40,125 nt of DNA from Candidatus Paceibacter sp. (GTDB lineage: Bacteria; Patescibacteriota; Minisyncoccia; Phycocordibacterales; BOKC01). The notes beneath the pieces are model-generated. The model worked only from the letters and a program-made list of their open reading frames with translations. It was not told the origin of the DNA and searched no databases. Position numbers and translations under genes: made by a program. Shown here in pieces: positions 2,507 through 40,017 of the stretch (its first letter is position 1; each line of letters opens with the position of its first letter). The DNA lies in contig DYGD01000006.1 in the NCBI GenBank assembly GCA_020724885.1, positions 1 through 40,125 on the forward strand. The letters are read 5' to 3'.

Positions 2507-3691
2507 TCAAAGATTTTTATTTCTTTGCAGACATTTCTCAACTTCATTTTTATCAATCACCGGCAATCTTTCCTCTCCTGGGGTTGTCGGATAAGGTAAT
2601 TCTTTCATTTCTGAAACCAGACAATCAAGGCATCTGACGGCTTTTACTTTGTCATTTTCGGCTTTCTCAACCAACAAATCCAAAGCGTCGGTAGAAATCA
2701 AAACTTGCCGTTCCCTGGCCTCGGATTGAATAAATTCTGCTATTTCTTTTTTCTGATGACCCTCACCAATAAGGCCGGAAATGCCGTTATTGCTGTAAGC
2801 CAAAGACATTTCTGCCTGTTCGGCTTTTCTCTGTCTTCTCAAAATCAAGACAAAAGAAAGCAAAATCAGGCCACCGATAATCAAAATTGACAGAGAAATT
2901 ATTCTCCAAACAAAAGGGACCATGCTGGTTTCCGGCAACCCGCCGACGGCGGTAGAGACGCTTTTAGTTGTAGCGATAGCGCCAATAGAATTTTTATCGC
3001 CAATTTCAACAGAACAATTAGCGGTCATTTTCTGCCCGTCCGCGGAAACCAGAACTTGGGCTGATTTTATGCCAGCAGTCCGGTAAGATATAGAAACCGC
3101 TTCGGTCCCGCCTGACAAGTCATCGACGCCAGACCATTCATATGTTCTTTCTCCGGCAAAACCAATGGTTCTAACTTGCCAGACAACGTTTTCTCCCACA
3201 CCAGCCGGATCAGGATTAGCAAAACAACTGGCTGATGGAAGCTGGCCTTCGGCAAGCATCTCACCTAAAACAGTTCCTTGACGTGACCCACCACCCCGGT
3301 CTGTAGAAAAGCCGGTACTTTCAGGATTTTCAACAACCACACTGCAATTTCTAAAGATTCGCTGTCCGCCGGACTGGACTCTTACAGTCGCGGTTTTAAC
3401 ACCGGGTGTCCGATACACCTTAGAGACGCTTGAATTGGCACTGCTTAAACTATCCGAACCGGACCAAAGATAAAGATAAGAATAAATTCCGTCACCGCCG
3501 GAAACATCAACATACCAAGTAACCGATTGGCCAACCACCGACGGCGAAGGGGACGCAAAACAATTGCCAGACAAAGAAACACCTTGGGCAGAGGCCGGGC
3601 TATTATTTGGCAACATAAAAATACCCCCAAAAACAAATACTGGAATGGCGATAATCAGAATGCTTAAATTTTTGTATGTATTATTTAACAT
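2507..3691 (-). CDS. Secreted/membrane protein with two PKD/Ig-like repeats and a C-terminal TM segment
   Basis: N-terminal hydrophobic segment, two repeats of the form SC/NCFA-P-P--VG--V-W--------Y-WSG-D-L, TM helix near ISLSILIIGGLILLSFVLIL. Confidence 0.7.
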   Translation of the reverse strand: MLNNTYKNLSILIIAIPVFVFGGIFMLPNNSPASAQGVSLSGNCFASPSPSVVGQSVTWYVDVSGGDGIYSYLYLWSGSDSLSSANSSVSKVYRTPGVKTATVRVQSGGQRIFRNCSVVVENPESTGFSTDRGGGSRQGTVLGEMLAEGQLPSASCFANPDPAGVGENVVWQVRTIGFAGERTYEWSGVDDLSGGTEAVSISYRTAGIKSAQVLVSADGQKMTANCSVEIGDKNSIGAIATTKSVSTAVGGLPETSMVPFVWRIISLSILIIGGLILLSFVLILRRQRKAEQAEMSLAYSNNGISGLIGEGHQKKEIAEFIQSEARERQVLISTDALDLLVEKAENDKVKAVRCLDCLVSEMKELPYPTTPGEERLPVIDKNEVEKCLQRNKNL

Positions 3692-25367: not shown

Positions 25368-25751
25368 TTAGTTATCAGAGGGGCTCCAGATACCTCCTTC
25401 TACATCTCCAAAATTAGGATCGTTCAACAAAAGAATAAATTCTTCTAACTGTTCCCTACGAAGATTCGCTTCTATTCTTTTAGGCTCTTCTGACTTAACG
25501 TTTATCACGAGAAAGCCTTTATTTATTCCAAAACACAAAAATTCAACACTAAAATCACGGCTTCTCAAGTTTTCGTCGGGAAAGGTTTTATAGATAAACT
25601 CTTGTATTGCTAGGCTAATCTTTCCTTTATCAATCGGATTTTCTGTTTTTAAAACAGGTGGGAAATCTTCTGGAGTATTGCCTTTCTCAAAACTTATATC
25701 TCTTTTTTTAGATTCATCACTTTCTCCTAAATTTTCAAATCTATTTTTCAT
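25368..25751 (-). CDS. Hypothetical protein
   Basis: ORF trimmed to MKNRFENLGESDESKK; same-strand position between rpe and tkt. Confidence 0.55.
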   Translation of the reverse strand: MKNRFENLGESDESKKRDISFEKGNTPEDFPPVLKTENPIDKGKISLAIQEFIYKTFPDENLRSRDFSVEFLCFGINKGFLVINVKSEEPKRIEANLRREQLEEFILLLNDPNFGDVEGGIWSPSDN

Positions 25752-25794
25752 ATGAAATATTTTTTTAACTTTATAACTACTAAATTCTAACATA

Positions 25795-26496
25795 CTAGGT
25801 TCCAACTTTCCTTAATTCTTCTATAGTATTTTTTATATTATCACTTTCAAAGATTGCCGAGCCGGAGACCAGACGAGTGGCGCCGGCTTCTACCAATAGC
25901 GGAGCGGATTCCAAGTTAACTCCGCCGTCAACACTCACAACTGCTTCGGGAAATTTTTCTTTAAGTTCTCTGATTTTTAAAATTACCCTTTCATCAAACG
26001 GCTCTCCTTGAAAACCAATTTGAGCTATACCCATAAACTGCACAAAATCCAATTCAGAAACAAAAGGATAAATCTGGTCGTTCTCCGTATCAATATCAAG
26101 CGCCAAGCCAAGCCCAATGTAAAGCGCTGAATCCTTTGAAACCAACCGGCTTCTAAAATCTTTTATCAACGAACCAATATTGTCTGTTGATTCAATATGA
26201 AAAATTATTCTTTTGGCGCCGGCAATAACCCAGTCAAACCAGACATCTTCCGGCCTTTTAATCATCAAGTCAACCTCAAAATCAATCTGATCCCAAAAAG
26301 GAAATTCTTTTTCTTCCTTTTTAATTGCGACAAAATCCGTGTCTTCAGAATTTAAATACGGCCAAGACGGTTTAGGTGTCAATTTCCCATCCATCACATC
26401 AATCTGCACCAAAGGAGCGAGTCCTACGACTTGAGACATTTTGTCCTTTAAATCGTGAAAATCTTTGGGAATGATTGCTGGAATTATTTCAACCAT
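25795..26496 (-). CDS. Ribulose-phosphate 3-epimerase family protein
   Basis: MVEIIPAIIPKDFHDLKDKM, QIDVMDGKLTP, VSVDGGVNLESAPLLVEAGATRLVSGSAIF. Confidence 0.88.
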   Translation of the reverse strand: MVEIIPAIIPKDFHDLKDKMSQVVGLAPLVQIDVMDGKLTPKPSWPYLNSEDTDFVAIKKEEKEFPFWDQIDFEVDLMIKRPEDVWFDWVIAGAKRIIFHIESTDNIGSLIKDFRSRLVSKDSALYIGLGLALDIDTENDQIYPFVSELDFVQFMGIAQIGFQGEPFDERVILKIRELKEKFPEAVVSVDGGVNLESAPLLVEAGATRLVSGSAIFESDNIKNTIEELRKVGT

Positions 26497-26528
26497 AATT
26501 TTTGATTGTGGCATAATGTGAATAAATA

Positions 26529-26655
26529 CTTGACATTCTTTTTGGTTTTGATAGTATGGACTCACAAATGGCTTCGGCCCGACTCCACCGTAAGGTGGAG
26601 GAAATAAACAAGAAACTCAAGGCAACAATGCCTTGAGTTTCTTGTTTAACTGCTG
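26529..26655 (+). ncRNA. Candidate small RNA (or micro-ORF) with own promoter and strong terminator hairpin
   Basis: TTGACA-16 nt-TAGTAT (26531-26558 region); hairpins CTCCACCgtaaGGTGGAG and AAACAAGAAACTCAAGGCA-acaa-TGCCTTGAGTTTCTTGTTT. Confidence 0.45.
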
Positions 26656-27477
26656 AAATTCTTCATCTTTCATCGTTCCAATATGGCGACTTAATCTCCT
26701 AGCATCAATGAGGCGGACTTGAGATAAAATAGCAACACTTGTTGTGTTTTCATCAAAGGGAAAGGCAAAGTAATATTTACTTCTTTTTTCAGTCTTAGAC
26801 AGAGGAACAGCTAAAAAAATTTCGTTGTTAAATTTCCGAATAATAACCACTGGTCGCAGAAAATCTTCGCCTTGGCCATCCTGCTCAAATCCCACATTAG
26901 CTCCCACATAACAAAACCAGATTTCTCTTTCATGAAAAAAAGGACGTCTCTCAATGGAATGAATATTTTTCTTTTTTAAATTCCAACTATCAAAATCTTT
27001 AGAGGAATCTGAGTCAATTACCGACTTATTAACCAGAAATTCCAACTTCTCCAGTCTACGCTTATGCCGCTCATCTTTTGAGAAATCGGTTTCCAGCCAC
27101 AACTTCACCGCTTCAATTGCTTCTGTCTCTTTGAGAAAACGCGCGCCAAGCGAGAGAATATTTGCGTTGTTATGCTCCCGAGAAAGTGTCACTATATCTA
27201 AACTGCTCCCGTAAAAAACTACGGCGCGAACGTTTGTAAATCTATTGGCGCAAATTGCTTCGCCTTGTCCAGAGCCACCAAAAATTATGCCTCGACTGTT
27301 TTCCGGATTTTCCGAAACTGCTTTGGCTACTGGAGCTATGTAGTCGGGATAATCGTCTTCCGGGTTTAATTCAAAAGCGCCTTTATCTTCCACTTCATAA
27401 CCCCCAGCCAAAAGAAATTTTTTAATTTCCTCCTTTAATTCAAACCCTGCGTGGTCGGCGCCTAAAAATACTTTCAT
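26617..27477 (-). CDS. Ribose-5-phosphate isomerase B fused in frame to a PemK/MazF-like domain
   Basis: N-term MKVFLGADHAGFELKEEIK...GIIFGGSGQGEAICANRF...REHNNANILSLGARF (RpiB); C-term WNLKKKNIHSIERRPFFHEREIWFCYVGANVGFEQDGQGEDFLRPVVIIRKF...SQVRLIDARRLSRHIGTM (PemK/MazF-like). Confidence 0.87.
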   Translation of the reverse strand: MKVFLGADHAGFELKEEIKKFLLAGGYEVEDKGAFELNPEDDYPDYIAPVAKAVSENPENSRGIIFGGSGQGEAICANRFTNVRAVVFYGSSLDIVTLSREHNNANILSLGARFLKETEAIEAVKLWLETDFSKDERHKRRLEKLEFLVNKSVIDSDSSKDFDSWNLKKKNIHSIERRPFFHEREIWFCYVGANVGFEQDGQGEDFLRPVVIIRKFNNEIFLAVPLSKTEKRSKYYFAFPFDENTTSVAILSQVRLIDARRLSRHIGTMKDEEFQQLNKKLKALLP

Positions 27478-27591
27478 GAAAAATTAGGTAATAATAAAAT
27501 GGAAAAATTTTTGTTATCTTGTAAATCTCACTAACAAGATCTATAGCTTTCTGCCAAACAGTCCAATCTTTATGATCCCGCATCATTATTA

Positions 27592-38518: not shown

Positions 38519-38746
38519 TTATAAATCATCAAACTCGTCTACCGATAGTCCGGCCTGCCTGACAACAATGTTATAGAGTGTCCCAATCGGTATATCTTTA
38601 GAACTATGTACCGGAACAGTCACAATCCTAGACCCGTCTTTGCTCTTAAGGTAAAGGTGGCTCCCCCGCTGATGCGTCTCAGAAAAACCGGCTTTCTTGA
38701 GTTTTTGAATGACTTTTCTTGCCGGCAGTCGTTTGAGCTTACCCAT
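38519..38746 (-). CDS. hicA: HicA-type mRNA interferase toxin
   Basis: LKKAGFSETHQRGSHLYLKSKDGSRIVTVPVHSSKDIPIGTLYNIVVRQAGLS. Confidence 0.93.
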   Translation of the reverse strand: MGKLKRLPARKVIQKLKKAGFSETHQRGSHLYLKSKDGSRIVTVPVHSSKDIPIGTLYNIVVRQAGLSVDEFDDL

Positions 38747-38751
38747 GGAAT

Positions 38752-39000
38752 TTAAACAGCTTCTGGAATAAAAAGTTTGATGTAAGTACCTTCAGTATGA
38801 AAAGCTGGTTTAGGAATTTCTTTCTGTTCTTTAACAAGCACCTCCAAATAACCCAAGGCCGCTTCTCTGACATTGGCTTCCGCCTCGGCAAAGGAATCAC
38901 CAAAAGAAGAAACATGGTTAAGCTCCGGAATGGTAGCAACTACCTGCCTTGTTTCTTTATCCACTTCATATTCAATTTTGTACTGAAACTCTTTTGACAT
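38752..39000 (-). CDS. hicB: HicB-type antitoxin
   Basis: FQYKIEYEVDKETRQVVATIPELNHVSSFGDSFAEAEANVREAALGYLEV. Confidence 0.9.
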   Translation of the reverse strand: MSKEFQYKIEYEVDKETRQVVATIPELNHVSSFGDSFAEAEANVREAALGYLEVLVKEQKEIPKPAFHTEGTYIKLFIPEAV

Positions 39001-39062
39001 GCTTCTATTATAACACTTAATTTGCTTGAAATCCAAGAATTTGTATGCCGTATCTAGAATTT

Positions 39063-39141: not shown

Positions 39142-39573
39142 TTAGTTTTGTTTATCCATAAACTCTACGAAATATTTAGCAAAAGCGCGAAAGACATCCG
39201 GAGCTTTTTGGAGATAATCATGAATTTTTACTTCATCAATTTTATCGTAATCGTGAACCAAAAAATTCCTAAATTTCGCCATATCAATATTTTCATCCGC
39301 AAACTGTCTTGGGACAATTTCACTTTCCCCAAGCATTCGCACCACGTCTTTGTATTCTTCCGCGGTTTTGCCGACTACTTTTGATAAGAAATGTTGTCCA
39401 ACATCCAAAATTATCGTTATGCCTATGAGTAAATTGAACATAGCAACATTATTCAATTTAAAATCTTTTACAAACTCGTCTTTTGGAGAACGGGACACTT
39501 CCTCAAGTATTTTAATTACTTCCTTGAGGCGGAACAGTTTGCTGTTCATTGATTCTTTTTCAAACAATTTCAT
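39142..39573 (-). CDS. HepT-like (HEPN/DUF86) toxin
   Basis: RNFLVHDY (RX4HXY motif) in a helical DUF86-type protein. Confidence 0.88.
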   Translation of the reverse strand: MKLFEKESMNSKLFRLKEVIKILEEVSRSPKDEFVKDFKLNNVAMFNLLIGITIILDVGQHFLSKVVGKTAEEYKDVVRMLGESEIVPRQFADENIDMAKFRNFLVHDYDKIDEVKIHDYLQKAPDVFRAFAKYFVEFMDKQN

Positions 39574-39582
39574 ATTTCTTGT

Positions 39583-40017
39583 TTATACTGGTAATTTGCC
39601 AAAGCTACCATCTTTTAGCTCCTGCCTTAAAACATTGTCGCGAATACGCCTTAATTCTTTTGTATCTTCGTACTCTCTGACAATCATCCGTTCTAGCGCA
39701 AAACGGGCATCAGAATCTACATCAAGAATCAACTCTCCGCCAAATATCGCTTGATATTTTATAAGAGGTCCGCGAGCGGTTTTGAGATCTATGACATCGG
39801 TATCAACAACTCCTAATTCTCTTGTAATATCAAAAGAGAGTTTCATTCTTTTATTAAAGTTGTCCTGCCCAAAAGCATCTTCGCCGAAAAGCACGCCGAC
39901 ATCAATATCAGAATGTGGCCCCATTGTGCCCCGAAGGGCTGAGCCAAAAAGATACCCGACAATTACGCCGTGCTGTTCCATAATTTCCGCTATTCTTTTT
40001 TTATCTTTCTCGTTCAT
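39583..40017 (-). CDS. MntA-like minimal nucleotidyltransferase (antitoxin)
   Basis: GYLFGSALRGTMGPHSDIDVGVLF (GS-X10-DXD). Confidence 0.9.
   Translation of the reverse strand: MNEKDKKRIAEIMEQHGVIVGYLFGSALRGTMGPHSDIDVGVLFGEDAFGQDNFNKRMKLSFDITRELGVVDTDVIDLKTARGPLIKYQAIFGGELILDVDSDARFALERMIVREYEDTKELRRIRDNVLRQELKDGSFGKLPV

Follow-up and report, generated by a model that had tools for sequence, protein, structure and literature searches.

Analysis of a 40,125-bp stretch of a Candidatus Paceibacter genome (hereafter the window) showed that the gene for ribose-5-phosphate isomerase B (RpiB) continues in frame into a PemK/MazF-like toxin domain, and that a predicted gene for a structured RNA lies directly downstream on the opposite strand. 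The explanation that we propose, and consider probable, is that a mobile two-gene module, consisting of a gene for a MazF/PemK-fold endoribonuclease and a gene for an RNA of ~85 nt, landed between rpiB and rpe, that its toxin gene became joined in frame to rpiB, and that the convergent RNA, with its own sigma70-type promoter and a terminator in common with pemK, acts as the likely antitoxin. The coordinates of the features are given in Table 1.

Table 1. Features of the fusion locus and of two further in-frame PemK fusions (positions refer to the window unless a locus is named)
Feature	Position	Strand	Basis or remark
rpe, ribulose-phosphate 3-epimerase	25795..26497	-	Pfam; start codon placed from the same-genus genome, where rpe adjoins rpiB
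Predicted RNA gene including promoter	26530..26648	+	directly downstream of the fusion
Predicted sigma70-type promoter	26530..26557	+	TTGACA 26530-26535, 16-base spacer, TAGTAT 26552-26557
Predicted convergent structured RNA (~85 nt)	26564..26648	+	starts with ACAAATGG at about 26564 and ends with the terminator hairpin; likely antitoxin
First hairpin, GGC-UUCG-GCC	26570..26579	+	
Second hairpin, CUCCACC-GUAA-GGUGGAG	26583..26600	+	GNRA loop
20-bp terminator hairpin	26605..26648	.	overlaps the pemK 3' end; likely used by both transcripts
rpiB-pemK fusion ORF	26617..27477	-	read 27477->26617; stop codon 26617-26619; open frame, both Pfam domains above cut-offs
RpiB domain, aa 1-146	27040..27477	-	profile, structure and genome searches
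Linker, aa 147-160	26998..27039	-	low-confidence stretch aa 155-160 in the predicted model
MazF/PemK-fold domain, aa 161-286	26620..26997	-	Pfam, family profile, predicted structure
R208 codon	26854..26856	-	aligned with MazF Arg25
S227 codon	26797..26799	-	aligned with MazF Thr48
PemK of L154	L154: 2649..3044	+	with upstream frame
PemK of L156	L156: 2599..2976	+	with upstream frame

The fusion is a single ORF of 286 aa with an ATG start and no internal stop; it is encoded on the minus strand, a point on which the earlier note is silent. A Pfam search of this ORF returned LacAB_rpiB at aa 3-145 (E 4.6e-41, above the curated cut-off) and PemK_toxin (PF02452) at aa 185-285 (E 5.2e-12; 46.4 bits against a cut-off of 23.1), which bore out the claim of an earlier note on this DNA that a complete RpiB is joined to a PemK/MazF-like domain in one frame. 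The RpiB domain passed the cut-off of the subfamily PRK05571 and did not reach that of the rpiB equivalog TIGR01120. It matched solved RpiB structures (best E 8.3e-29), and Foldseek gave a TM of 0.88 (normalised by target) to RpiB of M. tuberculosis. By alignment it retains what we take to be the active-site residues of the M. tuberculosis enzyme, and the RpiB part of the fusion probably still works. It was the sole RpiB match in the genome (592 kb, 93% complete), in which neither RpiA nor a second RpiB was found.

AlphaFold2 predicted both domains of the full fusion well and the linker at aa 155-160 poorly, and a Foldseek search with this model returned RpiB and MazF structures for the respective domains. 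The isolated C-terminal domain was predicted with a pLDDT of 88; its nearest structures were the MazF proteins from S. aureus and B. subtilis, with TM values of 0.67-0.70. The profile of the pemK family matched B. subtilis MazF (E 8.5e-10), and all 66 relatives of the fused toxin domain matched PF02452. The key catalytic residues of MazF are Arg25 and Thr48 (PMC7354611). Their positions, which the earlier note had proposed to inspect, are occupied in the fusion by R208, invariant across the 66 relatives, and by S227 in place of the catalytic Thr. Ser is also found in the close free homologues L040, L117, and L124 and in M. tuberculosis MazF7 (PMC7354611). The fused MazF-fold domain would be an RNase and a toxin, and start sites inside the fusion ORF may release it as a separate domain on translation.

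In Patescibacteria, the family of the fused toxin domain normally consists of free proteins of ~130 aa that start with M-[KE]-K-D-F-x-x-W, and the fusion junction 'SKDFDSWN' coincides exactly with this start. The family differs from MazF by an N-terminal W-x-x-x-K helix and a longer first loop. It was present in 147 of the 397 genomes of the order, with a patchy, multi-copy distribution of up to eight matches per genome.

The same-genus comparison, resting on one genome (G001), showed the gene order nrd-gap-rpiB-rpe-tktN-tktC in the same neighbourhood, with an RpiB of 153 aa and without pemK; therefore, the likeliest event is an insertion of pemK that separated rpiB from rpe, in frame with the former, in the lineage of the window. 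The earlier note would have given up the fusion if the genes were separate in all close relatives; in this one relative rpiB does stand alone, and the fusion in the window still stands. Two further features of this neighbourhood were observed. The stretch between gap and rpiB (27478-27589, minus strand) encodes part of a 23S rRNA-intervening-sequence protein and is apparently a decayed insertion; its PF05635 match (E 6.6e-5) stayed below the cut-off. Between rpe and tktN (25368-25805, minus strand) lies an ORF of 145 aa with no Pfam or NCBIfam match, and no ORF was found at this site in the same-genus genome.

The search for other genomes with the same fusion, suggested in the earlier note, yielded one more, an ORF of 332 aa in genome G181 (PCWC01000113.1; loci L032/L114), which belongs to another family. 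In the toxin tree, the two rpiB fusions fell in different supported clades and were united in no bootstrap tree, which points to two independent origins. A single ancestral rpiB-pemK fusion was rejected since the toxin tree gave it no support. The fusion, its absence from the sister genome, and a second, apparently independent fusion are established at the level of sequence. Directly upstream of the second fusion (L114, 1154-1775, minus strand), an ORF of 104 aa and a helix-turn-helix ORF of 94 aa were seen, which are HigB/HigA-like by eye only.

Other fusion partners were also found. In L154 and L156, a small protein beginning with 'MSANNYI', for which no Pfam match was obtained, is joined in frame to PemK; the PemK domains of these two loci lie apart from each other in the toxin tree. 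In L151, from position 3670 (plus strand), PemK is N-terminal in an open frame of 713 residues, the remainder of which resembles a repeat-bearing surface protein. Long open frames before pemK in L108, L136, L158, L159, L160, and others were not counted as fusions, as they look like sequence preceding the true start.

Lining up the DNA downstream of 77 pemK genes revealed a conserved element on the strand opposite pemK. Read in this direction, TTGAC[AT] is separated by 15-18 bases from a TATAMT-like box, and ACAAATG follows 5-7 bases further on. Behind ACAAATG come two hairpins, the first GGC-UUCG-GCC and the second usually capped by a GNRA loop, then an A-rich stretch, and finally the terminator hairpin, which overlaps the pemK end. 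The predicted fold of the window RNA had an energy of -47.7 kcal/mol (z -9.8), and the two 5' hairpins alone had a z of -3.3. At least two tandem RNA elements or hairpins behind one pemK were observed in L201/L214 (G635:C58:11423-11595), L164 (2685-2888), and L008 (1244-1525).

The promoter, covariation, wobble, and tetraloop figures count related sequences repeatedly, and are thus inflated and not to be read as probabilities. Of 70 intact toxin loci, 69% reached a promoter score of 10 or more out of 12 on the convergent strand. The corresponding shares were 6% for the pemK strand, 4% for either strand upstream, and 5% for shuffled sequence, the shuffles preserving single-base composition only. 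All cells paired in a MAFFT alignment of 14 sequences, which showed 14 double changes where shuffles gave 4.6. In 75 model-aligned copies, an alignment that was fitted to the structure, 99.4% of cells were paired, and double changes numbered 111, whereas shuffles gave 25 and slid controls no more than 19. For the terminator hairpin, a structure-blind alignment of 32 sequences gave 65 double changes against 18. The ratio of G.U to A.C on the convergent strand was 20:1 and 31:2 in two counts (A.C being the wobble of the other strand). The tetraloops of the second hairpin were GNRA in 36 cases on the convergent strand and in 1 on the pemK strand, and those of the first hairpin were UNCG in 31 and 0, respectively. 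Promoter, covariation, wobble asymmetry, and tetraloops together indicate that the convergent element is a transcribed structured RNA, and not simply a hairpin in the DNA or the terminator of pemK. The loop types and the G.U/A.C counts ruled out that the hairpins serve the pemK mRNA alone. The Rfam search returned no credible known family for this RNA, and the covariance model of RF02913 had no hit over its cut-off in the window or in 59 relatives.

A covariance model built for the convergent RNA (R1) was used in genome searches. It matched 132 of the 397 genomes of the order, the best match having an E of 1.2e-21, and the RNA of the window was intact (E 1.1e-19, 79 bits). Across the phylum, matches were obtained in 16 of the 288 genomes sampled. 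Thirteen RNA loci from outside the order were inspected, and 11 of them had pemK in the expected convergent position. The RNA gene was kept at both rpiB-pemK fusions. Starting from the toxins, a strict element score was passed by 65 of 77 loci, and toxins that are truncated or broken are among the others. With a looser rule, 66 of the 72 intact toxin loci passed; the other six had either an R1 match or an element recognisable by eye. Among the best 29 RNA loci, an intact pemK was at the expected place in 18 and none was there in 11, six of which held pemK remnants (among them a 31-aa tail with 84% identity in L176, a 50-aa tail in L181, and a weak remnant in L186). Loss of the toxin with retention of the RNA, and rarely the reverse, is what an antitoxin role of the RNA predicts. 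On these comparisons, the RNA gene is established with its predicted promoter, structure, strand, and tight link to pemK.

The statement of the earlier note that no antitoxin gene is adjacent holds as far as proteins go: around the 77 loci, no small ORF resembling an antitoxin recurred beside the pemK genes, and no MazE-family match over the cut-off was found in the genome of the window. It overlooked the convergent RNA gene. The PADLOC anti-phage defence library gave no match.

We infer that the convergent RNA is transcribed and neutralises the toxin, and that the folded RNA would do so by binding the toxin directly, as in type III systems. Such binding appears roughly twice as likely as antisense pairing with the toxin mRNA, because the unpaired ACAAAUG and the two capped hairpins, the most conserved parts of the RNA, lie outside the overlap with the toxin gene. 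Of the RNA, only the terminator region overlaps this gene. ACA is the target triplet of E. coli MazF; as a guess, the leading ACAAAUG of the RNA, which contains ACA, might act as a substrate mimic of the toxin. RpiB would carry the toxin domain, kept in check by the RNA, within a cluster of carbon-metabolism genes. Since RpiB is the only ribose-5-phosphate isomerase detected, the whole fusion gene would be hard to lose, and the fused module could be disarmed by truncation, not lost together with the gene.

Several points weigh against this antitoxin model and lead to other explanations. The overlap at the 3' end also permits antisense action. A type I antisense antitoxin, which would base-pair where the two terminators overlap, at the 3' end of the toxin mRNA, and so hasten decay of this mRNA, is rather unlikely. 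It agrees with the convergent order, with an overlap that spans the last pemK codons, and with SR6 of B. subtilis, which overlaps the 3' end of the yonT mRNA and promotes its degradation (PMC5848175). However, the conservation of sequence and tetraloops peaks outside the overlap, in ACAAAUG and the two 5' hairpins, where pairing needs no conservation, and the toxin is a MazF-fold protein of ~130 aa, not a small hydrophobic peptide. The linkage of RNA and toxin could also be co-inheritance in a cassette, with no antitoxin role for the RNA, and the RNA is short and single-copy, without the pseudoknot of solved type III antitoxins. It is unlikely that the RNA is real but no antitoxin, tuning pemK through convergent transcription, acting as a host-directed small RNA, or forming the end of a mobile cassette. 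The patchy, multi-copy pemK family would fit this, and RNA copies without an intact toxin are equally explained by an independent function of the RNA; but the asymmetry of G.U/A.C and tetraloops points to a transcribed RNA, not a DNA end, several orphan RNAs hold pemK remnants and hence were modules formerly, and no recombinase family recurred next to the loci.

Two explanations concern the fusion itself. An inactive toxin domain (domesticated or decaying), or a fusion produced by faulty assembly, is quite unlikely. This particular fusion occurs in one genome only and Ser substitutes for the catalytic Thr; yet the frame is fully open, the catalytic Arg is kept, the same Ser is found in free homologues and in MazF7, and the RNA gene beside it is intact. 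Moreover, a faulty assembly of the window is made less likely by an unrelated MAG (L032/L114) whose fusion has the same architecture. The earlier note had proposed RpiB as an in-cis antitoxin, or an RNase gated by metabolite binding. RpiB and a MazF-fold domain do share one chain, and such a fusion arose twice, but both ideas have become very improbable: the pemK family is mostly free-standing, RpiB is one of several fusion partners, others being unrelated small proteins, the RNA gene is kept at both rpiB fusions, and the predicted linker is poorly ordered.

In the antitoxin model that we prefer, the conserved convergent RNA would explain why the MazF-fold proteins of the pemK family in Patescibacteria look as if they had no antitoxin. 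On balance, we lean towards an undescribed kind of toxin-antitoxin system that is widespread in Patescibacteria, in which a MazF-fold RNase would be neutralised by a convergent, promoter-bearing structured RNA and the two, as a unit moving between lineages, can become welded to indispensable enzymes such as RpiB. If true, this would be a new RNA-antitoxin architecture outside types I and III and a new structured RNA family, and the rpiB fusions would illustrate a way in which addictive modules become hard to lose from a 0.6-Mb genome. In the literature covered, which took in a minority of subscription journals and no bioRxiv preprints, no account was found of rpiB-pemK fusions or RNA antitoxins in Patescibacteria, or of such a toxin-RNA pair, and an earlier description is possible. 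The window also holds a HicA/HicB pair (38519-39036, minus strand; HicA E 9.7e-19, HicB-like E 1.2e-6) and a HEPN/MNT-type pair in which a HepT-like ribonuclease adjoins a nucleotidyltransferase (39142-40017, minus strand).

Among known systems, the fusion resembles the RpiB family in keeping the complete domain with its active-site residues and fold, and differs from it by the C-terminal toxin-fold extension. The toxin fold and the catalytic Arg are shared with MazEF/PemIK (type II), but the genes of the window family have the convergent RNA beside them instead of a MazE/PemI-like partner, and the N-terminal helix and longer first loop are additions to MazF. ToxIN, CptIN, and TenpIN (type III) likewise lack a protein antitoxin and pair an RNase of MazF/Kid-like fold with a structured RNA (PMC5086642), and the TenpIN toxin model weakly matched 1 of 66 family members (E 0.0043, a hint only). 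The type III RNAs described so far form pseudoknots and are encoded as repeats upstream of the toxin within its operon (PMC5086642), whereas the window RNA is downstream on the opposite strand, has its own predicted promoter, is usually single-copy, and carries two simple hairpins; the type III layout of an upstream RNA in the same operon, with tandem repeats and an intervening terminator, was not found at the pemK loci. In yonT/SR6 of Bacillus (type I), a convergent small RNA also overlaps the 3' end of the toxin gene (PMC5848175), but the toxins of such Bacillus systems are small peptides (58 aa for yonT) and the conserved parts of the window RNA lie outside the overlap. The Rfam pemK RNA motif RF02913, named in PMC7657543, is also a structured RNA, and takes its name from pemK genes, but its covariance model does not match the window RNA. 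The module resembles an RNA-antitoxin system, yet by its sequence departs from each of types I, II, and III in one defining feature.
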